This document shows, piece after piece, positions 7,265-51,500 of a stretch of 64,000 nt of DNA (its first letter is position 1; each line of letters begins with the position of its first letter). The stretch is from Verrucomicrobiia bacterium (GTDB lineage: Bacteria > Verrucomicrobiota > Verrucomicrobiia > Opitutales > Cerasicoccaceae). Where the stretch lies: the NCBI GenBank assembly GCA_030425485.1, contig JAUIAM010000010.1, positions 51,816 through 115,815 on the forward strand. Reading direction: 5' to 3'. Under the pieces are notes generated by a model. That model was not told the DNA's origin, searched no databases, and saw only the letters and a program-made list of their open reading frames with translations. The translations under genes and the position numbers were made by a program.

Positions 7265-7366
7265 GCTTTGGGATGGAAAGCTACCTTTGCAATTCTGTCA
7301 AGGCCCTCCGGTCAAAGGGTCGCTTAGGGGTTGTTTCACCGCGGTGTCTGCTCGTAGGCTAAAGGC

Positions 7367-8257: not shown

Positions 8258-8284
8258 GGGGGAGAACTAAAGGCCTGTATTTGC

Positions 8285-18527: not shown

Positions 18528-18908
18528 TTATGCAGCGTTTACTTTCGGCAGGTCAGCCGGAATCTCTACCCCATGCGGATGCTTTCGCTTGACCCGGTTG
18601 AGCCGCGAGCGGCGGCGCAGTTTACGGTCGAGCTTGTCGATCATCTGGTCCACGGACTTGTAGAGGTCATCACTGGCCACACTGACGATCATGGGCGCGC
18701 CATTGATCTCGATGTGCCCCTTGGCAATGAACTCCTCTGCTTTACCGTTGCCCTTGTTCTGATTGTACTCAAGTTCAACCCGTAAGCGAATGATTCGCTC
18801 TTCGTGCTGAAAAAGCTTATCTGCCTTTTCATGTACGAGGGTTTTCAGGGCTTCGGTCAGCTCCATATGCAGACCGGAGATAATCACTTCTTTATTGTTC
18901 ATACGCAT
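18528..18908 (-). CDS. hpf: ribosome hibernation promoting factor (short type)
   Basis: A 126-residue protein of the HPF/YfiA family: VIISGLHMELTEALKTLVHE, ADKLFQHEERIIRLRVELEY, KGHIEINGAPMIVSVASDD and LYKSVDQMIDKLDRKLRR, the beta-alpha-beta-beta-beta-alpha fold that binds the ribosomal channel in stationary cells. The C-terminal domain of long HPF is absent; only a basic tail (RSRLNRVKRKHPHG) remains. Start chosen at 18908; ATG at 18902 is equally possible. Confidence 0.9.
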   Translation of the reverse strand: MRMNNKEVIISGLHMELTEALKTLVHEKADKLFQHEERIIRLRVELEYNQNKGNGKAEEFIAKGHIEINGAPMIVSVASDDLYKSVDQMIDKLDRKLRRRSRLNRVKRKHPHGVEIPADLPKVNAA

Positions 18909-18961
18909 TTTCCGGTTAGTGGTTAACGAAATAGGAAACTCCCACACAGGAATTACCCCCA

Positions 18962-20816: not shown

Positions 20817-20892
<76 letters not shown>

Positions 20893-30612: not shown

Positions 30613-31131
30613 CTAATCTTCGAGATTGGAGATACGCTGCGATAGGTTTTCGATGGCCTTGTCTTTCCGTTGGAGCTCGCCTTGCAACTGGTCGTTCTGC
30701 TCAATGAGGGCGGCAATCAGGTTGTTGGCCTGAGTGATCTTGTTTTCGAGTTCCCCGGTAAGCAGTGCCGTTTGCTTGGCAGGGTCGGCGACGGCGACGA
30801 CCGGCCCCAAGGGAACTGCGGTCGGGGCGCTTGGCGTCAGGTTCCATTGAGCCGGGCGTTCCACTCGGGAAATACGGTGTCCATCGTGGCGAATGCCGGA
30901 ATCCTGTGGATCAACGTAAGGACCAATATAGTAGGCGTGAATCGCCTCGGGCGTGCGGACCTTGCCCATATTGTAAGGGTCAAGCTGAGTGCCCGAAACT
31001 TGAATGGGCTCGGCTGGCTGCATTGGCGGCGGTTCCTCGGCAAAAGATTCCGTGGATTCGCAGCCGCTCCAAAACAATGCAATGGGCGCGATGGCGAACA
31101 GGCCAATGAGTCGTTTTCGTTTATCCTTCAT
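30613..31131 (-). CDS. lipoprotein with C-terminal coiled coil (secretion-operon)
   Basis: A 172-residue protein: basic N-terminus, hydrophobic stretch LIGLFAIAPIALFWSGC with a lipobox-like end, then a Pro-rich linker and a 60-residue heptad region (NKITQANNLIAALIEQNDQL, KDKAIENLSQRISNLED). Start at 31131 is set by the ATG that precedes the signal; it overlaps the VirB10-like stop by 11 bases. It is the last gene of the secretion operon core and could be an outer-membrane tether, but no named family fits. Confidence 0.6.
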   Translation of the reverse strand: MKDKRKRLIGLFAIAPIALFWSGCESTESFAEEPPPMQPAEPIQVSGTQLDPYNMGKVRTPEAIHAYYIGPYVDPQDSGIRHDGHRISRVERPAQWNLTPSAPTAVPLGPVVAVADPAKQTALLTGELENKITQANNLIAALIEQNDQLQGELQRKDKAIENLSQRISNLED

Positions 31132-32197
31132 TTGCGTTATCCTCCTTTTTCCAAATGTCCTTGTTGCTGACGTTGCCCCGCGTACCTTCGCGGGCGTCGA
31201 TGGTTTGGGTGACATAGACGTAAAACTGCTTCCCGGTGGGCACGCGAATGTAGTAGCCGTCGCGTTGAATCGTTTCCCGAATCTGCTCGGCATACTCGAC
31301 CATGACGGCGCTGGCGCCGTCCAAGGCGGCATTCCCGGCAGAGCTTTCGGCAATTTGGATACTCGAACCGGTATCAGTGATAAAGTTGTCGTATTCTTTG
31401 AGGCCCTGCGTAGCGGCGGCTAGAAAGGTCGAAGCGAACAGTTTAATCTCGTTCCAACTATCGCTTTCGATGAGGTAGCCTTTCAAGCCTGCGGAGCCAT
31501 CCCGCAACCCCCACTGCCCGGTGTTGAAATTGTATTCGCGGTCTAGCGCAATGCCCTGCACGGCTAGCTCCGTGCCGTTGAGACGGTCCTGTGTGCGCCA
31601 GACGAAATTCCATGTGCCGGTGGCGGCAATACGGTCACGGCTGCGGCTTTCGCTGGCGCGACCATGAACTTCGGCCCCCGCCGGTATTATGACTTTACCG
31701 GCATGGACCACGTCATCGGTGACAAGGCCAATGATCGGCGTATTGATCGCATTACTCTCAACGGTGATAGTAAGCTCGCATGGAACGAGGCGGCCATACG
31801 GCGCGTAATCGGCGGAAAGCGTTGGTTGATTCTCGGGCGGTTTGCCCGCAAAGAGATTCAGCGGCAATTCCGGTTCGGGCTCTTCCTTGGACTCCTCTTG
31901 ACGCGCCAAGAATGGCCGGGATACAACTGACTCTGGTTTAGTCGCAGTCTTTTCTTCCGTTGGCTCGGGCTTCTCGACCGTGATGGATTGAACAACGGCG
32001 CCGGGCATTCTGAAGCGCGGGATGTCCCGCTTGTACACCTCCGGCTTGTAATTGTAGGTTTCGCCTTGGGGCTCGTTAAAGTCAGCCTCGGCTCGCCCTT
32101 CTTCGATGGAGTCGAGCACAACCACGGCGGCAATGGAGCCAACAAGGGTTATTAGAACGACGGCGTTGCCGAGTGGTGATTTGATAAATGATAGCAT
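31121..32197 (-). CDS. virB10: VirB10/TrbI-like core-channel protein
   Basis: A 358-residue inner-membrane protein: a short cytoplasmic start, a membrane segment (LGNAVVLITLVGSIAAVVVL), a Pro-rich periplasmic region, and a C-terminal beta domain with YGRLVPCELTITVESNAINT, VHAGKVIIPAGAEVHG, TQDRLNGTELAVQGIALD and VPTGKQFYVYVTQTID. In the family this bridges both membranes of the type IV secretion channel. The gene lies between VirB9- and lipoprotein genes as in tra/trb operons. Confidence 0.82.
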   Translation of the reverse strand: MLSFIKSPLGNAVVLITLVGSIAAVVVLDSIEEGRAEADFNEPQGETYNYKPEVYKRDIPRFRMPGAVVQSITVEKPEPTEEKTATKPESVVSRPFLARQEESKEEPEPELPLNLFAGKPPENQPTLSADYAPYGRLVPCELTITVESNAINTPIIGLVTDDVVHAGKVIIPAGAEVHGRASESRSRDRIAATGTWNFVWRTQDRLNGTELAVQGIALDREYNFNTGQWGLRDGSAGLKGYLIESDSWNEIKLFASTFLAAATQGLKEYDNFITDTGSSIQIAESSAGNAALDGASAVMVEYAEQIRETIQRDGYYIRVPTGKQFYVYVTQTIDAREGTRGNVSNKDIWKKEDNANEG

Positions 32198-32209: not shown

Positions 32210-33100
32210 TTAGGGAATGAGGAGCGTGGCCGGATCATTCACTTGGGATACGATGATCTGGAATGGATTCCTGATGCTGAGGTCGGCGCGTTCGCCGTTC
32301 GGCTTGCCGGTGATCGCGATGTAGGCGATGCTATCAGACTGCGGGGGAATGATGCCGGAGGCGTCCGCGATTGAGGGGAAATACAAATTCTGCCCGATCC
32401 TGACGGCCATCATCTGCGGCTGGTAGAAAATCGCCTCATCGGATTCATTCCGTAAGCTGATCTTGAAAGCAAGTGTGTCGTACTGGGGGAATCGATAGAT
32501 GTCATCGATCCGGACATTGAAGTCTTGGTATTCCGTATTCAGGTTTGGCGGGGCAAGATGTTGGATCTCCTCATCCAACATCTTTGGGTATGCTTGGTTA
32601 ATCAGGTGGTAGCTCTTGGCGCGATCCAGCAAATCAAGTAATACGCTCGGCGTGGTCTTATGTATGTTGGTGCGCTCGGCTCCGTAGCCTGCCGCCACCA
32701 TCGCCGAATCACCGGAATCCACCAAGCGAACGGTCCGGTAAGGAATTTCATCCTCATGGTGATAGAAATTGAAGACGAAGGTCTGATTCTGAAAAACCAC
32801 ATTGAGCGCTCCCCTTGCGTTGGGCTCGGTCGCCCGAACGGAAAAGAAGTAGCGGCCATCAATGTAACTGAGCAGAACCGGCGCCTTGTTCTTGGCGCTA
32901 CTGCTGACGTTGGCGCCATCAATCGATGAAAGCGGCCCCGGAAACGTAATCGTAGTCGGCGTGTTGCCAATCGGGATGTTGTAGACGGTTTGCGGATTGA
33001 GCGCATACTGCTTGATGACATCACGGTTATAGCGGTCTGCTTTCGCCAGTAGTATAGCTGGTGTCAGCAAGAGAAAGAAATGAATGAGGCGTAGATTCAT
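32210..33100 (-). CDS. virB9: VirB9/TrbG-like secretion protein
   Basis: A 296-residue exported protein with a signal peptide (LIHFFLLLTPAILLAKA) and a beta-rich body (NPQTVYNIPIGNTPTTITFP, YDTLAFKISLRNESDEAIFY, FPSIADASGIIPPQSD). Position between VirB8 and VirB10 genes supports the assignment; sequence similarity seen by eye is moderate. Start at 33100 avoids a non-conserved extension up to 33130. Confidence 0.65.
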   Translation of the reverse strand: MNLRLIHFFLLLTPAILLAKADRYNRDVIKQYALNPQTVYNIPIGNTPTTITFPGPLSSIDGANVSSSAKNKAPVLLSYIDGRYFFSVRATEPNARGALNVVFQNQTFVFNFYHHEDEIPYRTVRLVDSGDSAMVAAGYGAERTNIHKTTPSVLLDLLDRAKSYHLINQAYPKMLDEEIQHLAPPNLNTEYQDFNVRIDDIYRFPQYDTLAFKISLRNESDEAIFYQPQMMAVRIGQNLYFPSIADASGIIPPQSDSIAYIAITGKPNGERADLSIRNPFQIIVSQVNDPATLLIP

Positions 33101-33107
33101 GGTGCAT

Positions 33108-33794
33108 TTACAGTAAGATTTTGTCCTCAAAAGATGTGACCGCTAACGGGAAGCGCTTGTTATCGAGCATGTTCGGGTTGCGGTGCAAAACGAGGGTGAG
33201 CGTAAATTCCGGGTCTTCGACAAAGGTCTTACCTTCAAAGGTTCCGGTACGGATCAATTGCCCTTTTACCTGAGCGAACACCTGTTCTTCTCGGGTTTCG
33301 AGAATCTTGATTTCAAAAATTTCCACCTTCTGGTGGATGTCTTTTTCCCGGAATTCCTTGGATGCTTGCGAATGCAAGTCGCGTGCGTGCTTCAAGGCTT
33401 CATTCAGAAAGAGCTTGTCGAGCAATTCAGGCATATCGAACCCGTTGGGATTCTGCGAGAACAGGGCGTAAGTCGCCCATAACGCCAGTTCTTCGTGAAC
33501 GCGAGTCGCCTCCTGAAAGTCCAGCGTTGGCGTCACGGAAAAAGTTCCTGCGCCATCCATGACCACGATTCGCTCACGGGTGCGGTAGGCGTTGATAATG
33601 AAAAATGGTTGGATAACCACGAGGCCAAGTAAGAAAAGCGATACAAGAAACCACATGCGGGCCGCCCATGCGTTGTCCGTGAACAATTTCAGGGGATGAA
33701 ACTGCTTCTGCGGTTGCCGCTTCGTCCCACGCTCCTGCGCCTTTACCGGGTCAGGTTGTGAGCAGTCTAGTGTTTCTGGATTTTCTGAACTCAT
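33108..33794 (-). CDS. virB8: VirB8/TrbF-like secretion protein
   Basis: A 228-residue protein with a cytoplasmic basic start, one membrane anchor (WFLVSLFLLGLVVIQPFFII) and a periplasmic domain with LFSQNPNGFDMPELLDKLFL and a late FEGKTFVEDPEFTLTLVL. This is the layout of VirB8/TrbF, which assembles the channel. It starts 8 bases into... the gene stop/start ATGA junction with VirB6 (33791-33794). Confidence 0.72.
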   Translation of the reverse strand: MSSENPETLDCSQPDPVKAQERGTKRQPQKQFHPLKLFTDNAWAARMWFLVSLFLLGLVVIQPFFIINAYRTRERIVVMDGAGTFSVTPTLDFQEATRVHEELALWATYALFSQNPNGFDMPELLDKLFLNEALKHARDLHSQASKEFREKDIHQKVEIFEIKILETREEQVFAQVKGQLIRTGTFEGKTFVEDPEFTLTLVLHRNPNMLDNKRFPLAVTSFEDKILL

Positions 33795-35005
33795 ACATCA
33801 ATTACGGGTTTTGCGGCAGCGCCAAGGGCGAACAGTCTGGCCGCATGTTGGCTTCCCGTTGGATCACTCGGAGAAACGGGAAGCATGGGGTTGGTAGGCT
33901 CGGGCGGTGCTGGCAAAGCCGGTTGGCTTTCACTGGTCAGCGCAAGTTTTGCGTCTTGGTCAGCAGACGAATGATCTTGTCTGAATACGGGACCCAGTTC
34001 GGTTGATGAACCCCCGCCGTAAGTCGTTGGTGGCTCGCCCGTCGTGTATCCGCCAGAACCGCCAATACTGTCGTAGCTCGAAGCGGGCGCCGGAGCTGGA
34101 CTACTGGGCGGTGACTCACTTTTCGGGGCTGGTTCACCCTGTCCTTTAAAGCCCATGCTGCCTCCCATGTAGGTCGCAAAGGCGGCAGCGCCGGTAACAG
34201 CCCCGGTAATTCCCTGCAATATGGCGCCGCTGGAGAATAGAATATACATGATGGTTGGCGTTGCCAGCGTGCCAATCACCAGTATCAGCGAAGCCATTAT
34301 GCCCATCAGCAGGGAACCGAAACTCATCATGTAGAGCGCCGCTCCGGTGTCATTACCCGTAAAGGTTGAAGCGGTCGCAAAATCGTCAATGACGGCCATC
34401 GCTGCAAGATTCGTTATGGCAAAACCAATGGGCCATGCCATGACTGCCATGATGTTTGAAATCAGTTTTACCCCAATATTGCCCAGCGATGGAAATACGA
34501 ATAGAGAGAGTCCGATGGGCAGGAATAAAAAGCCAAACCACTTGAGGACATATTGAAGAATATAGAACGGGACCTGAAATAGTGCGGCCAGCGTTATGCC
34601 TATTTTGGCCAAGCCATAAACAACGGCTAGATACATCGAATTGACGATTCTATCGACTCCCCAACCTTCAGCCTCAGGGTCTTCCTGAATCGTATCAATT
34701 AAAGCTTCGCTAACGGCAAAAGGTTCACTGCCAAAGTCTTCATTTATCCATGCAGCGGCCTCGTTGAATCCTGAATCGAGCCCATCGAACCAGAAACGAA
34801 CCGTTGCGATGAGGGCATTTAGGAAGAAACAAGTGAATATGGGCTTCACCATTGCCATCATGTCTGTATCGGTGTCTGATGCTCGTATCAGCCTAACAAT
34901 GAGCCCAACTACGAGAATGAAGTAAGCCACAAACAACAGCGCTTCTTGAAGCTCAATGATCGAGCGCTGAAAGTCTTCAAGATAGATGTCTTCGAGAAAA
35001 TTCAT
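33791..35005 (-). CDS. virB6: VirB6/TrbL-like polytopic membrane protein
   Basis: A 404-residue inner-membrane protein with about six to seven hydrophobic segments over the first 290 residues (LQEALLFVAYFILVVGLIVR, LVYGLAKIGITLAALFQVPF, IGFAITNLAAMAVI, LLMGIMASLILVIGTLATPT, IMYILFSSGAILQGITGAVTGAA), then a low-complexity Pro/Ser/Gly tail of 110 residues. This fits VirB6/TrbL, which helps move DNA across the inner membrane. Overlap of 4 bases with the VirB8 gene. Confidence 0.78.
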   Translation of the reverse strand: MNFLEDIYLEDFQRSIIELQEALLFVAYFILVVGLIVRLIRASDTDTDMMAMVKPIFTCFFLNALIATVRFWFDGLDSGFNEAAAWINEDFGSEPFAVSEALIDTIQEDPEAEGWGVDRIVNSMYLAVVYGLAKIGITLAALFQVPFYILQYVLKWFGFLFLPIGLSLFVFPSLGNIGVKLISNIMAVMAWPIGFAITNLAAMAVIDDFATASTFTGNDTGAALYMMSFGSLLMGIMASLILVIGTLATPTIMYILFSSGAILQGITGAVTGAAAFATYMGGSMGFKGQGEPAPKSESPPSSPAPAPASSYDSIGGSGGYTTGEPPTTYGGGSSTELGPVFRQDHSSADQDAKLALTSESQPALPAPPEPTNPMLPVSPSDPTGSQHAARLFALGAAAKPVIDV

Positions 35006-35496: not shown

Positions 35497-36300
35497 TTAG
35501 TTTTCGGAGCTGGTGAGCCCCATTAGGTAGTTTTGCAAAGATTGGTAAGCAGCATGTTGGTCTTGCATGTGCGCCTTAACGGAGACGGATTTTGATTTTG
35601 CCTCCTGATTCTCACTCAGTTCTTTCAATGCGTTGTATTGCTGGTATTGCTTCTCGCGCTCAGAAATCAGCAAAGTGATTTGACCATTCTGAGCGTTTAC
35701 AATGGCAGATAGCTTCTGCACTTCCGCGTCAGTAGCGGCGTTTCGCAGTTCAGTCAGGGTGAGGGCCTGATTCTCTTGCAGCTCCCGCAAGCGAGCATCG
35801 ATCTCGCCGGAGGCTTCAACGTAATTGATATACTGCCGATCCACGGCGGCGTATTGTTTCAAAGCCGCATCGGTAACGTTGACCGCTTCGCCGGTTACGG
35901 TTACCGCGGGCACCTCCTCAAACAAACCGCCGTGAGTTTCACCGAGACTGTCAGTGCCATCGGCCTGCTCAATAACTTCATCCCACGGAATGCCGTAATT
36001 GATGTCATCGATAAAGTCATCCATTGAAAGCACTTCCAATGAAGGAAGATCGACCGCAATCGGGTCACCCATCCAGTCCTTCATGATGGTTTCCACTTCA
36101 AGTTGCTGCGTCATCGTATTTATTTGCTCGGTAAGCTGTTCGTACTGTTGCTGCCACTCAGTTAAGACTTCGGCGTGATTGGCGATGTCTTGTATTCTTG
36201 AGGTAATGGTTTGCGCGGTATGCGCGGGATCGGTGACGACCCACTGCGCTTGCGCCGAAATTGCGAATAGCAGAATGGAGAAAAATAGAATTAGCTTCAT
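35497..36300 (-). CDS. virB5: VirB5/TrbJ-like secretion protein
   Basis: A 267-residue exported protein. A signal peptide (LILFFSILLFAISAQAQ) is followed by WVVTDPAHTAQTITSRIQD and WQQQYEQLTEQINTMTQQL, the DP...Q and coiled-coil pattern of TrbJ/VirB5. Long helices continue to the end. The family sits at the pilus tip or stabilises the pilus. Order VirB4, lipoprotein, VirB5 as in trb clusters. Confidence 0.8.
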   Translation of the reverse strand: MKLILFFSILLFAISAQAQWVVTDPAHTAQTITSRIQDIANHAEVLTEWQQQYEQLTEQINTMTQQLEVETIMKDWMGDPIAVDLPSLEVLSMDDFIDDINYGIPWDEVIEQADGTDSLGETHGGLFEEVPAVTVTGEAVNVTDAALKQYAAVDRQYINYVEASGEIDARLRELQENQALTLTELRNAATDAEVQKLSAIVNAQNGQITLLISEREKQYQQYNALKELSENQEAKSKSVSVKAHMQDQHAAYQSLQNYLMGLTSSEN

Positions 36301-36304: not shown

Positions 36305-36751
36305 TTACCTTGCTTTTAAGTAGATGACGCGCTCATCCCTGAGCTCGCCGTTGATTTCTTGTTCGGGAATAACAATCGGAACGAAGGTTTCCGTTTCATC
36401 CTGATCGCCGTACTGCTTTTGCATTTGCTGGTTCTGCATAATCCAGTACTGTTGCTTGACGCTTTGGTTGAGCGCCGCTTCGTAGCCACTACGGTAAGCA
36501 AGGCGCTCACTTTCCTCGGCATAGGCGTTGGCTCCCAAGGCAGCGACGGCGCCCAGCGCCGCGCCCCCGGTCGTCCATGCGGCGTCTCCGTCGGAGGCTT
36601 CATAGGCGGTGAATGCGCCGAGTGCGCTTCCACCGACCACGGTGGCGCCCTTGCCGACATCGCTGTTGGCGCAACCGGCAAGCAACGCGCTTGCGAGAAT
36701 CAGGACAGAGAATATCTGGTGACGCCCAGTTGGGGAAAATAGTGTTTTCAT
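36305..36751 (-). CDS. glycine-zipper lipoprotein
   Basis: A 148-residue lipoprotein with lipobox LLAGC, then a Gly-zipper-like stretch (GKGATVVGGSALGAFTAYEA, WTTGGAALGAVAALGANAYA) that may insert in the outer membrane, and a Gln-rich tail. It overlaps the VirB4 stop by 4 bases. TrbH-like or VirB7-like outer-membrane lipoprotein by context. Confidence 0.62.
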   Translation of the reverse strand: MKTLFSPTGRHQIFSVLILASALLAGCANSDVGKGATVVGGSALGAFTAYEASDGDAAWTTGGAALGAVAALGANAYAEESERLAYRSGYEAALNQSVKQQYWIMQNQQMQKQYGDQDETETFVPIVIPEQEINGELRDERVIYLKAR

Positions 36752-39387
36752 TGGGTAATGCTTTCCTTTTCAGGCTGGGCCTTGGTTTGATTGTAATAGG
36801 TCTGCGCCTGTATATTCAGCGCGGTTCCACAAAGCGGCGGTCTGGCGCCTGGCGCGTAGTAGCACACACTGGAATACTTGTGTCCCTCGGCTTGTTGCTC
36901 CACGAGCGGGTAATCCATAATGGATTCCTGCACCGATGGCGGCAGTCCGGTGTCCTGGGCGATTTCCTGAATGTCGGCCTTGTCCAACTGTCGCATCAAT
37001 AGATGCTGCTTGGAATTGCCCATGACGACGGAGCGAATGCGCGAGCTTTTGAAGCGCTCGTATTGCTGAACGATGGAACAAGTCCAGCATGAGAATTTAC
37101 GAAGCTGCGCGTATGCCTCGGAAACGGTTTTCTCGCCTCCCGGCACGTCAAGGAAGCGTGAGACTTCTTCAAAGATGATCCGTTTGCGCAAGTTGCGCGG
37201 CAGCGAAATTATATGTTGCCGGGCGAATGAGGTAATGAGCAAACCGGCGGCAGTGCGTAGTTCAACGGCTTCGTCGCCCAATTGTCCCAACTCGAAATGC
37301 GCAATCCGGTTTTTCAAATTGATGTTGGTCGCGCCATCGAACAGCTTGCCGTAACTGCCGGTAGCCGTCCATGCGGCCATGAGGGTAGCCAATTCGTCAA
37401 TTTCCTCCTTGGGGTGGTAAGAACTGCGCCCGAATCGCATCAGTTCAATCAACTGAGAGTGGATCGGATAATCTTCGGGCTCAAAGTAGGCAAAAGCGGT
37501 GTCCTTGACGTAATCGCTCGTGTCGGCGTGTTTGGCGAACTCGACAACCCTGTCCGGCCTGATCGAATTGAAGAATTCCATCGCTTCCTCGTCCTCAGCG
37601 GCAAGTAAGTCGCGGAAAATACTGAATGCTTCGATAAAGCTTGTCTTGGTCTGAATCTTCTCTTGCTTCCACAGGTAGGTGGCGCACGCCATTTTGCGGA
37701 CCTCCGGCATACGGTCACGATGCTTGTTGCTCCACGATTCAAATTGGTCGCGGTAGAGTAAATCAATGTAGTGTCCAATCTGCGCCTGCCTGACCTGTTG
37801 CCGTTCCTGCGAATCGGGCACGCCAATCATGCGTGAAACCAAGGCGACGCCAGAGGATATTTGCAGGCGTGTCAGCGGCATACCTGCCGTATCGAGATAA
37901 TTGATTACGAGGTCGCTGTCGGGCTGGATAATGATTGGTGTGCCGCCAAGGTTATTCGTGAAGCTTTCGTATGACAGCCCTTCTTCAATGATAACCGTGT
38001 AGGCGAATTTGTGGGCGGTTTGCGATAGGAGGTCTTCCATGAAGACCGATTTACCGGCGCCACTGATGCCAAACAGAACAGTTTGCTGCGGGGTTCCCCC
38101 AACAAAGGTGTTGATGCCAACAAGATTGCTCTGGTTGCCGTCATAAAGCGCTTCGGCATTATCCAGATAACCGGTAAAGGTCGCCGAAAAAGGTAACAAA
38201 TCGGCCAAATAGCCGTCCTCGGCGTACTCGTCGCGGTGCGTGTAGGTGGAACCGGTCCAGCCGGGCCATGAGGCAAAGAACAGCTTCTTGCTGCTGGCAA
38301 AAAGAGTGTTCTGGTAAATCTCGGCTCCGTTCATCTGAGCGACGGCCTGCTTGAGCTCGGCTGTTTTGGCGCGAAGCGTTTCCAAGTCCTTCGCCCAGGT
38401 GCGAATAATATAGGTAACGCTGAACGGCTTCGTGTAGCCCTGCGCAAGCGCGTCGATTGTTTTCTCTTTCTTCTGGATGGCCGTGGCGTCCGATTGGCGC
38501 CCCTTGTGACGGTGCTCATTTTTGAGCCGGTCGGCTTCCTTCTCCTCCTTTCGGATAATTTGCCGAATGTCGAGAGGCTGAATATTGACGGTGATCTGAT
38601 AGTCCAGAGACGGCAGACTCGTCAGGTTATGGATGATGCCGGGGTAGGTTTCGCTGGGCCAGCGTTGGACCGTGAAAATGCTGTGATAATAGCCGTCAAA
38701 TTCCAGAGCGGCTTTGTCCGCCGAACGGATGTCACAATGCAGGCAGTTTTCCTGAATCGTGTATCGTTCGTCGAAACTGCTCTGGTAGTCATAGTCAAAA
38801 CTCTCGGAAAGCGAGGGGTTGAGGAACCGCTTGCAATAGGCGTAGTGTTCCACGTCGCTCATGGCGGCAACCGATGTATCCGCGCCCAAAACATTGCGCA
38901 TCTGATTTTCCCGTTCGCCAAAATGGGTCCGCAAACTGTCGAGCTGCGCGTCATAAAATTTGCGGAGTCCGGGCTTGGATTTCAGATTGCCCGAATACTT
39001 TTCCATTTCGCAGACAATGAAAATGACAAGGTGCTCGCGCCTGAGTTGACGCGCCAACATTCTGGACCAGTAGCGCGTGAAACGCTCATTGCGAATGGCC
39101 TTCAAATAATCGTCCTGACAGTGATCCAGTGTTTCCTGATAATACTGCGTTAGCGCGTGGCGGTAATCATTGTTGCAAGTCCATTGAACCTGCATCGATT
39201 CATTCGATCCCAGCGAATTAAGCATATGCCGTATCTTACGCTTGTATTCGTTTTTGATGCTCACGCTGCCGCCTCGCAGGTCGGGCGTTTCGACCACGAA
39301 ACCCTTGGCCACACGGCAGCCCTTTTCAAGCGAGCCGAAAATGAGCATGTCATCGGCAAACCAGCCATTGGGTGCCTGACTACTCAT
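36748..39387 (-). CDS. virB4: VirB4/TrbE-like conjugation ATPase
   Basis: An 879-residue protein. Walker A lies near residue 440 (FGISGAGKSVFMEDLL) and the Walker-B-like stretch near 734 is RIIFEEVSRFLDVPGG. The N-terminal 430 residues carry the TrbE/VirB4 domain (HREHLVIFIVCEMEKYSG, DIRQIIRKEEKEADRLK). The family powers pilus assembly and DNA transfer at the inner membrane. It overlaps the VirB3-like gene start by 8 bases. Confidence 0.92.
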   Translation of the reverse strand: MSSQAPNGWFADDMLIFGSLEKGCRVAKGFVVETPDLRGGSVSIKNEYKRKIRHMLNSLGSNESMQVQWTCNNDYRHALTQYYQETLDHCQDDYLKAIRNERFTRYWSRMLARQLRREHLVIFIVCEMEKYSGNLKSKPGLRKFYDAQLDSLRTHFGERENQMRNVLGADTSVAAMSDVEHYAYCKRFLNPSLSESFDYDYQSSFDERYTIQENCLHCDIRSADKAALEFDGYYHSIFTVQRWPSETYPGIIHNLTSLPSLDYQITVNIQPLDIRQIIRKEEKEADRLKNEHRHKGRQSDATAIQKKEKTIDALAQGYTKPFSVTYIIRTWAKDLETLRAKTAELKQAVAQMNGAEIYQNTLFASSKKLFFASWPGWTGSTYTHRDEYAEDGYLADLLPFSATFTGYLDNAEALYDGNQSNLVGINTFVGGTPQQTVLFGISGAGKSVFMEDLLSQTAHKFAYTVIIEEGLSYESFTNNLGGTPIIIQPDSDLVINYLDTAGMPLTRLQISSGVALVSRMIGVPDSQERQQVRQAQIGHYIDLLYRDQFESWSNKHRDRMPEVRKMACATYLWKQEKIQTKTSFIEAFSIFRDLLAAEDEEAMEFFNSIRPDRVVEFAKHADTSDYVKDTAFAYFEPEDYPIHSQLIELMRFGRSSYHPKEEIDELATLMAAWTATGSYGKLFDGATNINLKNRIAHFELGQLGDEAVELRTAAGLLITSFARQHIISLPRNLRKRIIFEEVSRFLDVPGGEKTVSEAYAQLRKFSCWTCSIVQQYERFKSSRIRSVVMGNSKQHLLMRQLDKADIQEIAQDTGLPPSVQESIMDYPLVEQQAEGHKYSSVCYYAPGARPPLCGTALNIQAQTYYNQTKAQPEKESITQ

Positions 39388-39721
39388 AGCTGCCTCCTAT
39401 TTGACGTGGATTAATTGGTTGATTGGCCTTCACAAATGAGAAACCCGATGAGGTCACATTGTGGAGCCAATCACGGTCATAGCCTCGGGGCTTATTGTGA
39501 CGAAGCGTGAAAACGTAGATGGTGGGCAGCGCCAAAAACGGCGCCGCCACCAGTATTGAAGCCACCAATCCGAGGCCAAAAATACTGAAGGAAATCATGC
39601 TTACCGATAGCGCCACGACGACGCCGATAATCGGGAAAAGAAATAGATTCCCTGAAAGGCCAAATGCCTGACCTTTGGAATCATTAGCCGCATTGGTGCG
39701 GGTACGCTCAAGCTGTTCCAT
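39380..39721 (-). CDS. virB3: VirB3/TrbD-like small membrane protein
   Basis: A 113-residue protein with two hydrophobic segments (LFLFPIIGVVVALSVSMISF, GLGLVASILVAAPFLALPTI) and a C-terminal RHNKPRGYDRDWLHN. Size, topology and position next to VirB4 fit VirB3. Confidence 0.75.
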   Translation of the reverse strand: MEQLERTRTNAANDSKGQAFGLSGNLFLFPIIGVVVALSVSMISFSIFGLGLVASILVAAPFLALPTIYVFTLRHNKPRGYDRDWLHNVTSSGFSFVKANQPINPRQIGGSYE

Positions 39722-39769: not shown

Positions 39770-40042
39770 TTAGAACGAAGGCGTAACCACGGCGTCGCCC
39801 AATCCTGCGAGCACGAAGAACGACGACATAATGAGGCCAGCGCCCGAAATAATCACACCGCCAAATATCGATGAATAGCCTTCCGAATCGCCATCGGCGA
39901 TCTTGCGGGCACCCCGCCACACAAGGAACACTCCGTAAACAAATCCGAAGAAAAAGATTACGCCCAGCGCCAGCGAGAACATATCTTTGAGGTCAGTCAG
40001 TGTGGCTTGCGCCAAGATGGGTGTAAGTGTGGTTGCATTCAT
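39770..40042 (-). CDS. virB2: VirB2/TrbC-like pilin
   Basis: A 90-residue protein: exported start (MNATTLTPILAQATLTDLKD), two hydrophobic helices (MFSLALGVIFFFGFVYGVFL, GGVIISGAGLIMSSFFVLAG) joined by a polar loop (RGARKIADGDSEGY). This is the topology of VirB2/TrbC major pilins. It is the first gene of the leftward operon. Confidence 0.7.
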   Translation of the reverse strand: MNATTLTPILAQATLTDLKDMFSLALGVIFFFGFVYGVFLVWRGARKIADGDSEGYSSIFGGVIISGAGLIMSSFFVLAGLGDAVVTPSF

Positions 40043-40228: not shown

Positions 40229-41164
40229 ATGATAACCACCGATCATATTTCCAAACTGAAAGGTCATTTGCTGGCCAATATTCGTGGGCAAGATACCGCC
40301 ATTGACAAAGCCTGTTCCGTGCTGGAGCGCGGAGCCTTCAAACTGTCGTCCCCGGATCGACCGTTAGGTTCGTTCCTGTTCGTGGGACCAACTGGTGTTG
40401 GAAAAACCGAACTCACCAAGTGTTTCACGCACTACCTTTTCCCCGGCGAAAATCGCCTCATCCGTTTCGATATGTCCGAGTATCAAAACAAGGAACAATT
40501 GGAAGTGCTGCTTGGCGACGACGCCAACGCCCAAGGGCAAATGGGGCGACAGTTCGATTTGAACCGGGATGCCGACGGCAACCTGCAAGGCGGCACAATT
40601 CTCCTCGATGAAATTGAAAAAGCGCATCCTGATTTGCTGCTCATTCTCCTGCAAATTTTGGAGGACGGGCGTTTGACGCTACGGGACGGCACACTGCTGA
40701 ATGTCTCGAATTTCTTTGTCGTGCTCACTTCCAACATTGGCGCCGCCGAAGCAATGGAGATGCGAAAATCAAGCGTGGAAACCGTGGAGCGTGTCGTGTT
40801 CAACTTGGTCAAAGAGAAACTTCGTCCTGAACTTGTCGGACGAATTTCTGAACAGATTGTGTTTCGTCGGCTGGAATATGACGTGCAAGTTGAAATTGCT
40901 AAACTCCTACTCGGACGCGAAATCGAGCGCTTAAATCGTCAATTTGATACGCAGATTTCTTACAACAAAACCGTCTTGGAATTTGTGCTCATCGAAGGAT
41001 TTGATGCCCGCTTTGGCGCCCGTCCTCTGCGCCGGTGCATTGAACGCTTGGTTGGCGACGCCCTTGTTGAACAACTAAAACTCGGCAATCAACCAGCCGG
41101 AATGTTGGTCGTCGATTCTGACGCTGGTAAGCTGCGTTTGCAAAGTGAAAGCCGTCCCGCCTAG
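40229..41164 (+). CDS. single-domain ClpB/ClpA-like AAA+ ATPase
   Basis: A 311-residue protein that matches only the second ATPase domain (D2) plus the small C-terminal domain of ClpB/ClpA: LFVGPTGVGKTELTKCF (Walker A), ILLDEIEKAHPDLLLILLQI (Walker B), VVLTSNIG (sensor 1), LRPELVGRI (arginine finger) and FGARPLRRCIERLV (sensor 2). The N-domain, first ATPase domain and middle domain are missing. The aromatic pore motif GYVG is not present; the segment reads NAQGQMGRQFD. It lies between the secretion operon and the relaxase. It may remodel transfer proteins; a role as a chaperone or substitute motor is only inference. Confidence 0.8.
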   Translation: MITTDHISKLKGHLLANIRGQDTAIDKACSVLERGAFKLSSPDRPLGSFLFVGPTGVGKTELTKCFTHYLFPGENRLIRFDMSEYQNKEQLEVLLGDDANAQGQMGRQFDLNRDADGNLQGGTILLDEIEKAHPDLLLILLQILEDGRLTLRDGTLLNVSNFFVVLTSNIGAAEAMEMRKSSVETVERVVFNLVKEKLRPELVGRISEQIVFRRLEYDVQVEIAKLLLGREIERLNRQFDTQISYNKTVLEFVLIEGFDARFGARPLRRCIERLVGDALVEQLKLGNQPAGMLVVDSDAGKLRLQSESRPA

Positions 41165-41192: not shown

Positions 41193-41645
41193 TTAGCAAA
41201 GCCCACCTTCATTGAATGAGTAGTAACCGATTCCTTTGGGATCGGATTTTGGATCGCCGCAAATGATGTGATCCAGCAAGGGAATCTGCATCATTTTTCC
41301 GCATTCTACGAGATTGCGAGTTGCCCGAATATCTTGCTGCGATGGGTGTGGATCGCCGCTCGGATGCTGATGGGCTACGGCGATGTTGGCGGCGCTCCCG
41401 AGAATCGCCACCCGGAACACTTCCGCCGGACTTATCATGGTTCCGCTGATCGTTCCGAGTGAAATCATGGTGCGGCTTATCGGCTGATTTTTGCGGTTCA
41501 TACAGATCACCCAAAAGCTTTCCTGCATCGGATAATTATCAAATGCCCCCTGCATGTATTGGTAGATCATGGCGGGACAGTCGAGTGCTGAGCTCTGGCA
41601 TTCTGAGACGAGTGAATACTTGATCGAAGCTTCGTAGATTTTCAT
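41193..41645 (-). CDS. RadC-like JAB-domain protein
   Basis: A 150-residue protein ending in a complete JAB/MPN motif: VAHQHPSGDPHPSQQDIRAT with both His and the Asp of the zinc site, followed by MQIPLLDHIICGD and GIGYYSFNEGG. Start at 41645 with GAAAGG upstream. RadC-like proteins are common in mobile elements; the biochemical role is not settled. It is convergent with the AAA+ gene and divergent from the relaxase. Confidence 0.85.
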   Translation of the reverse strand: MKIYEASIKYSLVSECQSSALDCPAMIYQYMQGAFDNYPMQESFWVICMNRKNQPISRTMISLGTISGTMISPAEVFRVAILGSAANIAVAHQHPSGDPHPSQQDIRATRNLVECGKMMQIPLLDHIICGDPKSDPKGIGYYSFNEGGLC

Positions 41646-42078
41646 TTTGTACCTTTCAATTTGAAAGGCTTCCGGCCCCTCAAAACCAATGAGGGTTTGA
41701 ACTGGAAACCGTTCGCGCTTCGCGCTCACGCGAGGTCAAGGTGGAGGCGCAGCACTACCTTGAACCGTGTGACACCATTGGAAAAAACGGGGACAGTTTC
41801 TTTTCCAGTGCGGTCAAATGCGCCGCAATTTCCACCGGATTTCAGGGCTATTTTTGAACGCGAATGCGCTCCGGTTTTGTCGCGAACCGTACTCCGAAGA
41901 CTTCGGCGATGTCTGGCGCAATAATTGGGGAATCCGGCCTTGGACAACTTCCCTATTAAGCGGGCGAATCCTGCGATAATATAGCCTTAGCTCGTAAGGG
42001 GTAAGGCGTCCCCCACCTAAAGAAACGCCCCAATGCGTTTCACAACATAAATAACACCGGGAAATCCCGCCCATAACC
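41646..42078. other. 433-base gap upstream of the relaxase; possible oriT region
   Basis: No gene recognised. It contains the RadC dyad, a second dyad CCCTCA-AAACCAA-TGAGGG at 41677-41695, and runs such as GGGGTAAGGCGTCCCCC near 42000. Origins of transfer of MobF elements usually lie next to the relaxase gene, so this is the best candidate place, but no nick site can be proved. Confidence 0.35.
41652..41668. promoter_or_regulatory. dyad overlapping the RadC ribosome-binding site
   Basis: Perfect palindrome CCTTTCAA-T-TTGAAAGG, 6 bases upstream of the RadC start; its left arm contains the GAAAGG read as ribosome-binding site on the minus strand. Confidence 0.55.
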
Positions 42079-44907
42079 GTGCTCAGTCCTAAGCCACAAT
42101 ACAACCTGCGCAATGCCAAGGAATACTTCCGGGAACACTTGCAGGTAGGCGACTACTACGCCCAAGAAAACGAGGTGCAAGGCGAGTGGTTTGGGCAGGG
42201 AGCGGAGAAATTGGGACTGCAAGGTACCGTAAAAGAACGCGAATTTGTCGCGCTATGTGAGGGCAATAATCCCGCCAATAATGAGCGCCTAACTGCGCGC
42301 AAAAACACGACGCGAACCAAGGACGGCAAGGAAGTCGCCAACCGGCGCATCTTCTACGACTTCACGATAAGCCCGCCGAAAAGCGTGTCGATTGCCGGGC
42401 TCTATCAGGACGTACGCATCGTCCACATTCACAATAAAGCAGTCCAAACAGCGATGCAAGAAATGGAGAAATTCGCCATGACCCGCGTTCGCAAAAACGG
42501 GCGCTCCGATGACCGGACAACCGGCAACGTGATCGGCGCGGCCTTCCGTCACGATACCAGCCGGGCGCTTGATCCGCACTTGCACACGCACTGCATCGTC
42601 ATGAATGCGACCTACGATCCCGTCGAAAATCGGTGGAAAGCGTTACAAAATTACGAAATGCTTAAGGCGCAAAAATTCGTCGAAAATCTCTACTACCACG
42701 AGCTTGCTAAGGGGCTCAAACAATTGGGCTACGTGACCGAAAACAATGCGCGTGATTTTGAAATCCGAAGCATCTTGCCCGAACTGATTGAAAAATTCTC
42801 GAAGCGTCATCAGCAAATTGATGCGGGCGTGCGAGAGCATTTATCAAACGGAAATCGGCCCAAGAATTTGAAGGAATTGCGGGCGCAAATTGCGCACGAA
42901 AAACGGGACCGCAAAATCAAGGAATCGTCGGCGTCGAACCTGCACGCTCACTGGAGTGGGCAAATGACGCCTACCGACATCGCCTCGCTCGCGCCAGAAA
43001 TCGCGCCTCATTCCGTCGATAAAACTACGCCGAATATGGGGGCCATTGTCAGTTGGGCCGATGAACGGGTATTCGAGCGCAAGTCTGTGGTCGAAGATTA
43101 CCAGCTCAAGGCGGCGGCGTTGATCCGTGGTCGGGGCGAGGATTTCACCCTCGAAAAATTGAACGCCGAAATCGCTCGCCGAAACTACCTCAAAAATGAG
43201 CGCGATCATACCATTACCACCCACGTTGCACTCGACCGCGAATTGCAAATCGTGGAAACCGCCAAAAATGGGCGCAATCAGCACGCGCCATTTTGCGAAG
43301 ATTATCAGCCGTCAATTGCGACGATAACCGGCGAACAAAAATCCGCGGTTGAGCGGATCCTTGGGAGCCAAGATTATGTGACGCTGTTCCGGGGCGGCGC
43401 CGGGACCGGCAAAACCTTCGCTTTACAGGAAGTCGCTAAGGGCTTGGAAAATGCCGGTCATTCCGTCGTCGTTTTAGCGCCGCAACGCCAGCAGGTTATC
43501 GACCTGCAAAACGACGGTTTTGCAGCGCAGACCGTCGCCCGGTTTCTGGCGAAAAGCGATCTGCCTTCCAATGCTGTCGTCGTGATTGACGAGGCTGGGC
43601 AGATTGGCGGCAAGCAAATGTCCGACCTTTTCACGACGCTGAAAGCGAGTGAAACGCGCATCATTTTGTCGGGCGACACGCGCCAACATGGCGCCGTGGA
43701 AGCCTCGGACGCGCTCCGAGCCATTGAAAAGCACGCCGGGCTTCATCCCGCCGAGTTGACCGCGATTCGTCGGCAAGACCCGGCCAAGGGTCGCGACGAA
43801 AACGAGCGCGTTTTCATTGGCGAATACCGCGAAGCGGTGAAGGCTGCTTCCAAGGGTGAAGTCGTCGAGTCGTTTGAACGACTCGACTCCCTTGACTGCG
43901 TGATCGAAGTCGATGAGGCGAACCGACAGGCGACTTTGGCCGATGATTATTTGCAGGCGCGGCAGGCCGGAGAATCGACGCTGATTGTCGCTCAAACTTG
44001 GGACGAAATTCACGCCGTTAATGACGCCGTACGTCAGCGCCTCAAGGAAGCGGACTTGTTGGGGGCGGAGTCCAAGCTGGCTTTCTACGAAAGCCGCGAC
44101 TTGGATAATGCGCAAAAGCGCGACGCGCGTTTTTACGAGCCCGGCGACCACGTTTATTTCATCAAAAAGTACGGTCGTTTTGGTAAAGGCGAACTTGCGA
44201 AAGTCGAACGCGCCAGCGAGCAAGGTTTTTCCCTGCGTAAAGATGGCAAGGTGACGACGGTCGGCTTCAAGCAGTCCAAGCACTTCGTTGTCGCTCGCCA
44301 GCGCGAGCTTGAACTGGCGCCGGGTGATCGTCTCCAAATGAAGTTCAACGGCAAGTCCGTTGATGGCAAACCTATTGTCAACGGCGAGCTCGTCACCGTC
44401 AGCCGCATTGCCAAAAACGGCAACATTGCCGTCATCGATGACCGGGGCCAGCGCAAAACTTTGGCGCCTACGCAGCGCCTAGCCAATCTCGGTTACGCCG
44501 TCACCTCGTACGCCTCGCAAGGCAAAACCGTCGATACGGTTTTATTCTCCGACTCGCAAAACCGGGCGGCGACGAACCGCAACCAGTGGTACGTGTCGAT
44601 TTCGCGGGCGCGGCGAAAGATCAAGATTTACACCTCGGACAAGGAAGCTTTACGCGAAAACCTACTGCGCCTCGGCGAGCGCACCTTGGCGATGGACTTT
44701 ATGGAAGCCAAGCGAAAGGGCGGGCAACTGATCCGGCAGGGAATCGACCATGCCAAACGCGCCCGCGAAATCATTTTGCAGGAAGCCAGGCAGCAATTGC
44801 TCAAGAAGCAGCGCTTGGCACCGCCTGCACCGCGCCAAGCCATCAAGCCACTCCGCAGCCCATTAAGGCGGCGCCAACAAAGCAGAGGCATACGACAATC
44901 AATGTAA
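42079..44907 (+). CDS. traI: MobF-type relaxase-helicase (TrwC/TraI-like)
   Basis: A 942-residue protein. The N-terminal relaxase domain has tyrosines at AKEYFREHLQVGDYYAQ and GEWFGQGAEKLGL, and the three-His metal site in RALDPHLHTHCIVMN (about residues 163-175). A RecD-type helicase follows, with Walker A FRGGAGTGKTFALQ (about residue 440), VVVIDEAGQIGGKQM and GYAVTSYASQGKTVDTVLFS near the end. It nicks oriT and unwinds the transferred strand. The start is GTG at 42079; no ATG fits. The C-terminal 40 residues are basic and low in complexity. Confidence 0.93.
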   Translation: MLSPKPQYNLRNAKEYFREHLQVGDYYAQENEVQGEWFGQGAEKLGLQGTVKEREFVALCEGNNPANNERLTARKNTTRTKDGKEVANRRIFYDFTISPPKSVSIAGLYQDVRIVHIHNKAVQTAMQEMEKFAMTRVRKNGRSDDRTTGNVIGAAFRHDTSRALDPHLHTHCIVMNATYDPVENRWKALQNYEMLKAQKFVENLYYHELAKGLKQLGYVTENNARDFEIRSILPELIEKFSKRHQQIDAGVREHLSNGNRPKNLKELRAQIAHEKRDRKIKESSASNLHAHWSGQMTPTDIASLAPEIAPHSVDKTTPNMGAIVSWADERVFERKSVVEDYQLKAAALIRGRGEDFTLEKLNAEIARRNYLKNERDHTITTHVALDRELQIVETAKNGRNQHAPFCEDYQPSIATITGEQKSAVERILGSQDYVTLFRGGAGTGKTFALQEVAKGLENAGHSVVVLAPQRQQVIDLQNDGFAAQTVARFLAKSDLPSNAVVVIDEAGQIGGKQMSDLFTTLKASETRIILSGDTRQHGAVEASDALRAIEKHAGLHPAELTAIRRQDPAKGRDENERVFIGEYREAVKAASKGEVVESFERLDSLDCVIEVDEANRQATLADDYLQARQAGESTLIVAQTWDEIHAVNDAVRQRLKEADLLGAESKLAFYESRDLDNAQKRDARFYEPGDHVYFIKKYGRFGKGELAKVERASEQGFSLRKDGKVTTVGFKQSKHFVVARQRELELAPGDRLQMKFNGKSVDGKPIVNGELVTVSRIAKNGNIAVIDDRGQRKTLAPTQRLANLGYAVTSYASQGKTVDTVLFSDSQNRAATNRNQWYVSISRARRKIKIYTSDKEALRENLLRLGERTLAMDFMEAKRKGGQLIRQGIDHAKRAREIILQEARQQLLKKQRLAPPAPRQAIKPLRSPLRRRQQSRGIRQSM

Positions 44908-48535: not shown

Positions 48536-51500
48536 TCATGCATCAGTGTCTTCGCGTTGGGGATCACCGCGACTACCGAACAGTTCATAGAGAAGCGGCA
48601 GAACAAGCAGAGTCAACAAAGTCGAAGTCAGGATGCCACCGACCACGACGGAAGCCAGTGGCCGCTGAATTTCCGAACCGACACCAGTGGATAAGGCCAT
48701 GGGTAAAAATCCCGCAGCCGAGGTCAGTGCCGTCGCCAACACGGGGCGGAGGCGTTGGCAGGCGGCCTGTGTGACGGCTTCCCGCAGGTTGGCGGTGCGC
48801 TCGCGGTAGGAACGAATGGCCGAAATCAAGATCTGCCCGTTGAGAACGGCGATGCCACTTAAAGCGATAAAGCCGACGGCGGCACTCACACTGAAAGGGA
48901 TACCTCTAAACCAGAGGGTGAGGATACCGCCAATGAGGGCGAGTGGGATGCCACTGTAAATGAGCAAAACATCGCGCATGTTCTTCAAGCTGAAGTAGAG
49001 CAGGAAGAAAACAGCCGCTAATGTAACTGGCACCACAATGGCGAGGCGTGTCTGAGCGCGTTCGAGGTTCTCAAACTGACCGCCCCAATCGAGCACGTAG
49101 CCCTCGGGCAGTTCCAGTGATTCATTGATCTTGGCCTTAGCTTCGGCGACGAATGATGAAACGTCACGGTCGTCCACGTTGACCTGAATACGGATCAAGC
49201 GGCGGCCCCATTCACGGTTGATCGTGGCGGAGCCATCTTCGATCCGAATGTCAGCCAGCCGATGCAGGGGCAGCTGCTGGCCTTCGGCAGTCGGAATGAT
49301 CGTGTTACGCAAGGCGTCGATATCCGTGCGCAAAGCGTCCGGCAGGCGCAGCACGAGGGGGAAGTTGCGTTGCCCCTCAAATACTTGCCCGGCCCGTGTC
49401 CCCCCCACGGATTCGACAATGCTCATGACATGGCGAGCGGAAATGCCGTGCTGTGCGATGACATCCTGCCGTATGTCGATCTTGAGGGTCGGCTGCCCGG
49501 TCAGTTGGTCGACGGAAATGTCGCCGCTACCTTCGACATCGAGCAGAATCCGCTGCACGTCGTCACTCAGTCGCACAAGTTCGTCAAACTCGTCGCCGTA
49601 GATCTTGATTCCCACGTCGGAGCGGATGCCGGACTCCATTTCGTTGAGCCGCATTTCGATGGGCTGGGTGAAGGCCATGTTGAGTCCGGGCAGTTCGGCC
49701 ACGGTCGCTTGCATGGCGGCGACCAACTCCGTCTGGGTTTTGGCTTTCGTCCATTCTTCACGCGGATTCAGAGAGATGAAAATATCGGTCAGTTCCGTCC
49801 CCATCGGATCGGTGGCGACCTCGGCCGAGCCGATGCGGCTCCAGACGTGGCGGATTTCATCCGGGTAGTTTTCCAGTAAGAGCTGCTCGATGCGCGTGTT
49901 GTATTTGACGGATTCGGGAATCGAAATTCCGGCAAGTCGGATCGTATTGATCGTGACCGCGCCTTCACTCAGTCGAGGCACGAATTCGCCGCCCATTTTC
50001 GCACCAGCCCATAGCGTCAGCGCGAAGACAACGGCCACCGCCGTCAAAACAAACACGCGGGCGCGCATGGCGAAGCGCAAACAGGCCGCGTAGGCCTTGG
50101 TCAATGTCCCCGCAAACCAGCCCGCCTCTTCTTTCGCACTGGGCTTGATGAAATAATAGTTGAGCACGGGCGTGACGGTCAGCGCGTAGATCAGTGCGCC
50201 TGCGAGGGCGAAGATGAAGGTCAGCGCCATCGGGCGAAACATTTTACCCTCGGTGCCTTCCAGCGTCAGTATCGGGAAAAACACTACAATTGTGATGCCC
50301 ATTCCGAAAACGACGGGGCGGGCGACTTCCTTGGCCGAGCTGATGACGATCTCAAGGCGCTCCGCCTTGGTCAGTTCCCGCCCCAACTCGACGCGTCGCT
50401 GCCCCAGCTTGCGCATGTTCGACTCGGTCATCACTACGGAGCCGTCCACGATCATGCCAAAGTCAACCGCGCCTAGACTGAGCAAACTGGCCGCGATGCC
50501 GAAGTAGCTCATGCCGAAGGCCGAAAAGAGCATGGAGATCGGAATGACCGAAGCGACCAACAGGCCTGCCCGGAGATTTCCCAGCAGCACGAAAAGGATC
50601 GCCACGACGAGGATGGCACCCGCCGCTAAGTTATGTTGAACCGTGCCGATGACCTGGCTGGTGAGTTCGGTGCGATCATAGACGACGTTCACGACGACGT
50701 CTTCCGGCAGTGACCGGCGGAGGCGATCCAGGCGTGTCTTGAGTTCTTCGGTCACGACCATGCCGTTTTCCCCCATCAGCATGAAGGCCAGGCCGAGCAC
50801 AATCTCGCCTTGCCCCTGTGCGGTGACAGCGCCCCGGCGGATTTCGTAGCCGATCTTCACCTCGTCGGCCACATCGCGGATGCGCAGCGGGCTGCCCGCG
50901 TAGGAGGCGATCACGATGTCCTCGATCTCTTTGATCGACTCCACGCGCCCGAGGCCGTGGATCAGCAGCGACTGCCCGCCGCGTGTGAGGATGCCGCCAC
51001 CGGCGTTGCTGTTGTTCGCCTGTAGCGCTTCGGCTACCTCGTCGAGGGTCAGCCCGAATTTGACCAAGTTCCGGGGCGAGACAATGACGTGATATTGCTT
51101 TTCGTAGCCGCCCCACGAGTTGACTTCGGCGACCCCGGAGACTTTCCGCAGCTCTGGTTTGATCACCCAGTCATGCAGTGTCCTCAGCTCCTCCAAGGAG
51201 TGCTCGGGATCGGTGGAGCTGAGAGTGTAGTGAAAGATTTCGCCGAGTCCGGTCGAAATGGGGCCCAGCTGTGGCCGTTCGATATCCTCGGGCAGTTCGA
51301 CCGTGGAGAGCCGTTCGGAGATATATTGCCTCGCCTCGGAAATCTCGGTATTGTCCGAAAAGGTCGCGACGACTTGGGAAAAACCGAACTTGGAAACCGA
51401 GCGGACGCTTTCCAGCCCGGGCAACCCGCCCATCGCCAGCTCAACCGGCAGGGTGATCTGTTGCTCGATCTCCTCAGGATTGAGCGCGGGTGCGACGGTG

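Follow-up and report, generated by a model that had tools for sequence, protein, structure and literature searches.

A Clp-D2-type ATPase lacking its pore loop accompanies conjugative type IV secretion genes in Verrucomicrobiota and may act as a third motor

According to the accessible parts of two 2025 reviews, known type IV secretion systems (T4SSs) have been described with the ATPases VirB4 and VirD4, and with or without VirB11 (PMC12857230; PMC12624023). As related there, VirB11 lies beneath the VirB4 hexamer in R388 and Dot/Icm (PMC12857230) and works in tandem with VirB4 (PMC12624023), and F-type and Gram-positive systems work without it (PMC12857230). No Clp-type component is named in the accessible parts of either review, 'Clp' occurring 0 times in that of PMC12857230, and no such component is mentioned in the corresponding part of an ocean-mobilome paper naming Verrucomicrobia (PMC11104534). 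Likewise, the titles and abstract openings of the literature searched, mostly open-access, held no description of a Clp-type T4SS component. As for Clp-type proteins themselves, the accessible part of PMC4999309 describes the aromatic pore loop as critical for threading in protein-remodelling AAA+ rings.

In the window, that is, the whole stretch of 64,000 nucleotides analysed here, a gene at positions 40229 to 41164 (+ strand) encodes a stand-alone ClpB-D2-type AAA+ ATPase of 311 aa in which pore loop 1 is deleted. The first-pass annotation of this DNA had described a stand-alone ClpB-type D2 AAA+ protein with Walker A/B, arginine finger and sensor 2 intact, which was confirmed; sensor 1 is intact as well. 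Walker A occupies residues 53-60 (40385-40408), Walker B residues 123-128 (40595-40612), and the arginine finger and the sensor-2 arginine are R205 (40841-40843) and R265 (41021-41023), all on the + strand. Among the aligned family rows, K59 of Walker A is kept in 275/276, D127 and E128 of Walker B in 278/278, R205 in 277/278 and R265 in 273/273. By all sequence signs, the protein can hydrolyse ATP. It has the ClpB/Hsp100 D2 AAA+ fold together with the ATPase residues, belongs to the Pfam class AAA_2/ClpB D2, and resembles in sequence the solved proteins ClpB, ClpC, ClpA, ClpE, Hsp104 and their kin. Both the N-domain and D1 are missing, its score with the full-length ClpB model TIGR03346 (220.9 bits) does not reach the cut-off of 1232.1, and no membrane segment was seen by eye. 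Between pore helix and Walker B, the close subfamily (67-100% identical) has additional residues (window 40562-40591, residues 112-121) that are missing from most relatives of 43-51% identity.

Two dedicated secretion ATPases were compared with this protein. Like VirB11 (TrwD, TrbB, DotB), it would be a third cytoplasmic ring ATPase beside VirB4 and VirD4, and its gene lies among virB genes; the ATPase family differs, being T2SSE in VirB11 and AAA_2/ClpB D2 in the window ATPase, which was matched by neither PF00437 (T2SSE) nor TIGR02788 (VirB11) at E 0.001. ClpV/TssH of type VI secretion is a Clp-type ATPase dedicated to a secretion machine. Its similarity to the window ATPase is one of D2 domains: the model TIGR03345 (852 positions) matches only from position 555, so that the first AAA domain is missing, and it gives 141 bits against a cut-off of 884.95.

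The aromatic GYVG motif of the pore loop had been read in the first pass as altered to NAQGQMG. Its loss held up, but the loop proved to be deleted rather than altered, with 6 residues as compared to 11 in Clp D2. In the alignment of relatives, the deletion site falls at residues 96-106 (40514-40546, + strand): where Clp D2 domains have a segment of the type PPGYVGYEEGG, the family is short by five residues, and the next helix begins early with the family motif GxxG(R). This is a family-wide trait, since the loop has 6 residues in 270 of the 279 family rows (231 proteins from databases plus 48 locus ORFs, with a few duplicate loci among them), GYVG occurs in 0/279 and an aromatic residue lies within the shortened loop in only 12/279, compared with a loop of 11 residues in 16 Clp rows that were picked out by having GYVG. 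When a Victivallales-type relative was used to retrieve more distant proteins, the 120 best of those listed were all without GYVG, one of them having a G-aromatic-V/I-G string somewhere, and nearly all kept the catalytic residues. The Victivallales-type subfamily, of about 335 aa and also without GYVG, was seen beside a more distant VirB4 (L219:3415-4422 and L220:6825-7832).

A second difference from the D2 domains of ClpB, ClpC and ClpA (HCLR-clade AAA+) lies after sensor 1. The [ILV]GF/L loop at this place is the ClpP-binding motif of ClpA, ClpC and ClpX; it was absent from the 14 family rows displayed and could be made out in 6 of 7 Clp rows covering the region, five further Clp rows being cut short. 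Instead of the G-F loop of ClpC-type rows, the family has a conserved stretch with the consensus EAMRM followed by E187, in a comparison that understates the Clp residue frequencies, some of its 24 Clp rows being incomplete. Relative to those D2-bearing Clp proteins, the family is without N-domain, D1, GYVG and ClpP-binding loop, and has the GxxG(R) motif and the EAMRM-like stretch. The absence of GYVG and the short loop, combined with near-invariant catalytic residues, suggest that ATP use is kept in the family while threading is not.

These proteins group in a single clade (48 rows, UFBoot 90) that excludes 15 clean Clp D2 rows; the support was 0.507 in an earlier, poorer tree with 24 Clp rows, some of them incomplete. 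That the gene is a decayed fragment of the host's ClpB, as might be thought from its closest solved proteins being ClpB, ClpC, ClpA, ClpE, Hsp104 and kin, is refuted by the family-wide conservation, the near-invariant catalytic residues and the separate clade, and the host's two full-length Clp-type genes, located elsewhere, are only 35-39% identical to it; we regard this explanation as having hardly any chance of being correct.

The ATPase gene had been placed divergent from a pilin gene, and a VirB2-like pilin ORF of 90 aa was indeed found at 39770-40042 (- strand), supported by gene order and conservation in relatives and not by Pfam. Further along the - strand lie ORFs for a VirB3-like protein of 113 aa (39380-39721; gene order and conservation, with no firm Pfam match), the VirB4 ATPase of 879 aa (36748-39387; profile matches), a VirB5-like protein (35497-36300; TIGR02791 at E 1.7e-6 and PF07996 at E 0.0012, both below their own cut-offs), a VirB6-like protein of 404 aa (33791-35005; gene order and conservation only), VirB8 of 228 aa (33108-33794), a VirB9-like protein of 306 aa (32210-33130; gene order, and CagX at E 0.003, below cut-off and in one relative only) and VirB10 of 358 aa (31121-32197; Pfam TrbI, E 6.2e-16). 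Profiles of VirB8 and VirB9 retrieved no convincing solved relative by sequence. The window VirB4 matches the TraC-F-type model best, yet with 125.7 bits against a cut-off of 567; the F-specific gene set comprises TraF, TraH, TraN, TraU, TraW and TrbC. On the other side of the ATPase gene are a RadC-like JAB domain protein (41193-41729, - strand) and a MobF (TrwC/TraI-type) relaxase-helicase of 942 aa (42079-44907, + strand). Two proteins of about 1030 aa, RND metal-efflux pump-like by eye, are encoded at 48536-51646 and 59294-62392 amid other likely metal-resistance cargo.

Contig C18 ends with the window, and contig C14 (locus L075) starts inside a gene resembling, by eye, the one that ends C18; in the near-complete genome G141, the C18 end and C14 fall within a single uninterrupted stretch. 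Window positions 20817-64000 are 99.6-99.7% identical to G141, compared with 75% for the chromosome just outside (18540-20522), and C14 positions 1483-8525 are 98.9% identical, the preceding 1.8 kb being more diverged from the C14 start. C14 encodes VirD4 (Pfam TrwB_AAD_bind, TraG-D_C and T4SS-DNA_transf) and a phage-type integrase. A 28-bp att-like repeat lies at 20839-20866 (+ strand) inside a tRNA-Phe gene (20817-20892), with its second copy beside the integrase (L075:8425-8452). From this repeat, the integrase, the set of VirD4, VirB4 and MobF and the contiguous copy in G141, it follows that window 20839-64000 plus L075:1-8452 is an integrative conjugative element at tRNA-Phe, of about 54.5 kb in G141 with an insert. 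The element carries the conjugative T4SS core set, with MobF and VirB4 in the window and VirD4 on L075, contiguous in G141, and it moved recently between species of one genus (99.6-99.7% against the 75% flank). The insert in G141, at window position 55086 (L107-L110), measures 2.5 kb, has ORFs of 505 and 118 aa and looks by eye like an IS66-type transposon. A TIR/SEFIR-domain protein of 526 aa, possibly a defence gene, adjoins virD4 (L075:3616-5196).

The first-pass annotation had noted the lack of both VirB11 and VirD4 in the window and advised extending the sequence beyond position 64000. Extension brought in the VirD4 coupling protein past the window end, so that this part of the claim did not stand, and no virB11 was found in the element or in its G141 copy. 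In the organism's own genome, PF00437 matches occur only on contigs C40, C56, C8, C57, C24, C50 and C48, and none on C18 or C14; the match on C50, considered as a VirB11, looks like a chromosomal PilT by its neighbours. The lack of VirB11 is not unusual in itself, as the F plasmid and Gram-positive systems are also without it, according to the accessible part of PMC12857230.

When the ATPase alone was used as query in a scan of species genomes, 17 family loci were obtained (L005-L020 and L059), all labelled as Verrucomicrobiota. Among 387 genomes of the window's phylum searched by profile, 22 carry the family, in 29 copies scoring at least 342 bits; full-length ClpB scored at most 282 bits, leaving a gap below the family. 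Genome samples (198 and 387) were drawn from larger groups, and up to 6 ATPase, 2 VirB4 and 5 VirB11 candidates were scored per genome in the 387-genome searches; copy numbers are lower bounds because only these best candidates were scored.

After duplicates (L111-L113 and L116) had been dropped, 40 family loci outside the window were compared, and 39 of them had T4SS genes in the fetched flank. As in the window, the gene is head-to-head with virB2, virB3 or virB4, within 1.1 kb, in 20/40 loci. It lies on the same strand at most 73 bp behind virD4 in 9/40, with overlapping start and stop codons in some and MobF upstream of virD4 in 7 of these 9; 0.6-0.7 kb behind virB10 in 7/40; and in another T4SS arrangement in 3/40. 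The exception, L019, is an apparently truncated copy, of which only residues 40-289 match, on a 10.6-kb contig with a recombinase-like ORF (by eye) just upstream. T4SS genes were found beside 0/41 ordinary Clp loci (most frames >800 aa, four of 434-573 aa), a weak control because these loci come from other phyla and the T4SS models were built from Verrucomicrobiota loci.

Across the 387 genomes, VirB4 at 200 bits or more, a line chosen after the scores were seen, was present in 28. ATPase and VirB4 occurred together in 21 genomes, the ATPase only in 1, VirB4 only in 7 and neither in 358 (Fisher p 1e-27, relatedness of the genomes not removed); in the ATPase-only genome (G343), the gene sits behind virD4. 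VirB4 at 500 bits or more was found in 21 genomes, 20 of which have the ATPase family, and the remaining one, G023, has a distant version. This distant ATPase, without GYVG and 32-37% identical, is encoded on the VirB4 contig in G023, G024 and G022. By contrast with the scenario named in the first pass, in which VirB11 and a coupling protein would be present and the ATPase absent from related elements, the coupling protein was found, VirB11 was not, and the ATPase is there in 20 of the 21 genomes with close VirB4. It is a conserved companion of the transfer system (39/40 loci), and its presence in transfer loci is not incidental. Neither ATPase nor VirB11 was found in the 11.6-19.9 kb read around a more distant VirB4 in G062, G380 (which has a second, partial VirB4 besides the one covered), G250, G253 and one of the two G022 elements (L221-L225), so related machines may do without the ATPase.

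These counts bear on the idea that the ATPase is an accessory fitness gene, for stress, plasmid maintenance or defence, which travels with the transfer genes by chance. Although RadC and a TIR-domain protein are nearby, as such an idea would have it, RadC is present in only a few family loci, whereas the ATPase is found among transfer genes in 39/40 copies, in three main arrangements, and in 20/21 genomes with VirB4 at 500 bits or more; we consider this idea very improbable. A less improbable but still quite unlikely role is that of an assembly factor resembling Torsins, i.e. a pore-less Clp-D2 ATPase that would assemble, repair or dismantle pili or the inner-membrane complex by surface remodelling, outside the resting machine. 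In 20/40 loci the gene and the pilin-like gene, or the operon of the latter, are transcribed divergently, which would suit this role, and TorsinA, as argued in the accessible part of PMC4999309, is a Clp-D2 relative that lacks the pore loop and does not thread. Both TorsinA and the family have a single Clp-D2-type domain without the pore-loop consensus; however, Torsins are eukaryotic ER proteins and, on the same partial source, they also lack the arginine finger and need an activator to supply it (PMC4999309), whereas the finger R205 is kept here in nearly every row, and the window ATPase has no visible membrane segment. Torsin was absent from the 50 rows shown of a fold search, which excludes nothing.

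Outside the phylum, relatives were more distant. A tblastn search of PLSDB plasmids with four family members gave no relative of at least 60% identity (best 39.7%), and where the rows listed bore an annotation it was ClpB, ClpC, ClpE, ClpK or another Clp/AAA name, several rows being unannotated; on viral contigs, the best of the 80 loci kept was 38% identical. In 198 Bacteroidota genomes, no match exceeded 279 bits among the matches listed, hence none was at family level. Some Bacteroidota genomes (G530:C78, G416:C1, G437:C61, G507:C1 and others) contain Clp-D2-like frames that, at about 440-452 aa, do not reach the length of a full Clp protein. One family member, P0086, is labelled Nitrospira sp. 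(a MAG, on a 9.4-kb contig), two of its named relatives being Opitutaceae, which may reflect a mis-binned contig or cross-phylum transfer; given this label, the family cannot be called restricted to Verrucomicrobiota.

VirB11 was also searched for in the 387 genomes, with five candidates scored in each. TIGR02788 was over its cut-off in 29 genomes, and in 0 of the 22 family genomes. The best E-values were about 1e-14 to 1e-19 in 19/22 family genomes, likewise in many ATPase-free genomes; sub-threshold matches well above the rest occurred in G242 (9.7e-53) and G251 (8.8e-53), with frames of 585 and 652 aa located on contigs that do not carry the ATPase, and in G065 (2.1e-30). VirB11 is expected to be shorter than the 559-826 aa of the frames in the 29 genomes over the cut-off, and VirB11-sized frames (344-362 aa), which occurred outside the family genomes in G231, G107 and G038, scored 199-203 bits, below the cut-off. 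Mutual exclusion of ATPase and VirB11 was therefore dropped as evidence of a swap, because the frames over the cut-off are too long and those of VirB11 size fall under it. PF00437 searches of 13 genomes that had contributed loci retrieved mostly frames of PilB/GspE and PilT size, with 3 matches (610, 591 and 389 aa) in Ereboglobus (G009, which has three ATPase copies) and 0 in G012. No T2SSE-type motif turned up in a regular-expression scan of the loci, which in a control recovered the L076 PilT together with 7 of the 8 PF00437 loci of the own genome.

Possible partners were compared by correlating between-element distances from trees of each protein, with a permutation test and host phylogeny not removed. 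In the 11 elements with all four proteins, the r value with the ATPase was 0.92 for VirB4, 0.82 for VirD4 and 0.55 for MobF (p 0.001). Larger sets gave 0.84 for VirB4 (n 31), 0.81 for VirD4 (n 20), 0.81 for VirB10 (n 23), 0.69 for VirB8 (n 25), 0.59 for MobF (n 16) and 0.57 for VirB9 (n 21), all significant by permutation, shared host descent included. The core proteins agree better among themselves (VirB4-VirB8 0.95, VirB4-VirB10 0.96) than the ATPase does with VirB4 (0.84). That the ATPase tree follows VirB4 and VirB10 also speaks against an accessory gene, and the order of the r values hints, without proving it, that VirB4 or VirD4 rather than the relaxase is the partner.

The trees weigh as well on whether the ring acts on the relaxase, taking it at VirD4 and unfolding or stripping it before export, as Clp ATPases treat folded clients. 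Its Clp/Hsp100 D2 ancestry and its position directly behind virD4 in 9/40 loci, with MobF upstream in 7/9, would agree with such an unfoldase, and relaxase unfolding is described in the accessible part of PMC5826034 as required, by an unfoldase that is unknown. However, the aromatic pore loop is deleted across the whole family, so that unfolding would need another way of gripping, the N-terminal substrate-binding domain is absent, and the ATPase tree agrees less well with MobF than with either VirB4 or VirD4. We hold this role, the main rival of our preferred reading, to be unlikely. With the pore loop lost and a tree closer to those of VirB4 and VirD4 than to that of MobF, relaxase remodelling comes second of the two ideas put forward in the first pass.

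We retain the other idea, that of a type of motor so far undescribed in transfer systems. In our preferred reading, to which we give a probability of roughly 0.45, the ATPase would be a third ring ATPase that docks on VirB4/VirD4 in VirB11's place and moves by ring switching, not threading; on docking, gene linkage and tree congruence bear only indirectly. The ATPase would form a hexameric ring, placed underneath the VirB4 hexamer at its cytoplasmic end, or next to VirD4, VirB11's place in R388 and Dot/Icm. ATP-driven opening and closing of this ring, instead of polypeptide threading, would be its action, and the shape change would be passed on to VirB4/VirD4, thereby possibly energising the extraction of pilin and the change-over from building pili to transferring substrate. 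The likely partner face would be the side which we take to bind ClpP in ClpA and ClpC, because that side lacks the ClpP loop and carries in its stead conserved residues specific to the family (around 174-191). Against this reading count the F-type and Gram-positive systems without VirB11, owing to which no vacancy has to be filled, and the different fold and N-terminal domain of VirB11.

More broadly, and somewhat short of an even chance in our estimation, conjugation in Verrucomicrobiota may run on a third motor undescribed for any T4SS, a Clp-D2 ring whose threading loop would have been deleted once in the family ancestor, so as to convert an unfoldase into a ring switch of VirB11 type acting on VirB4/VirD4 as their driver. 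If true, such a conserved Clp-D2 ring in elements of one phylum would bring a further class of motor into conjugation. It would also allow a natural test of the contribution of VirB11 and of the identity of the relaxase-unfolding ATPase, the latter being called unclear in the accessible part of PMC5826034. Finally, the family is a large natural set of Clp-type rings without a threading loop, in which it can be asked what such rings still do.
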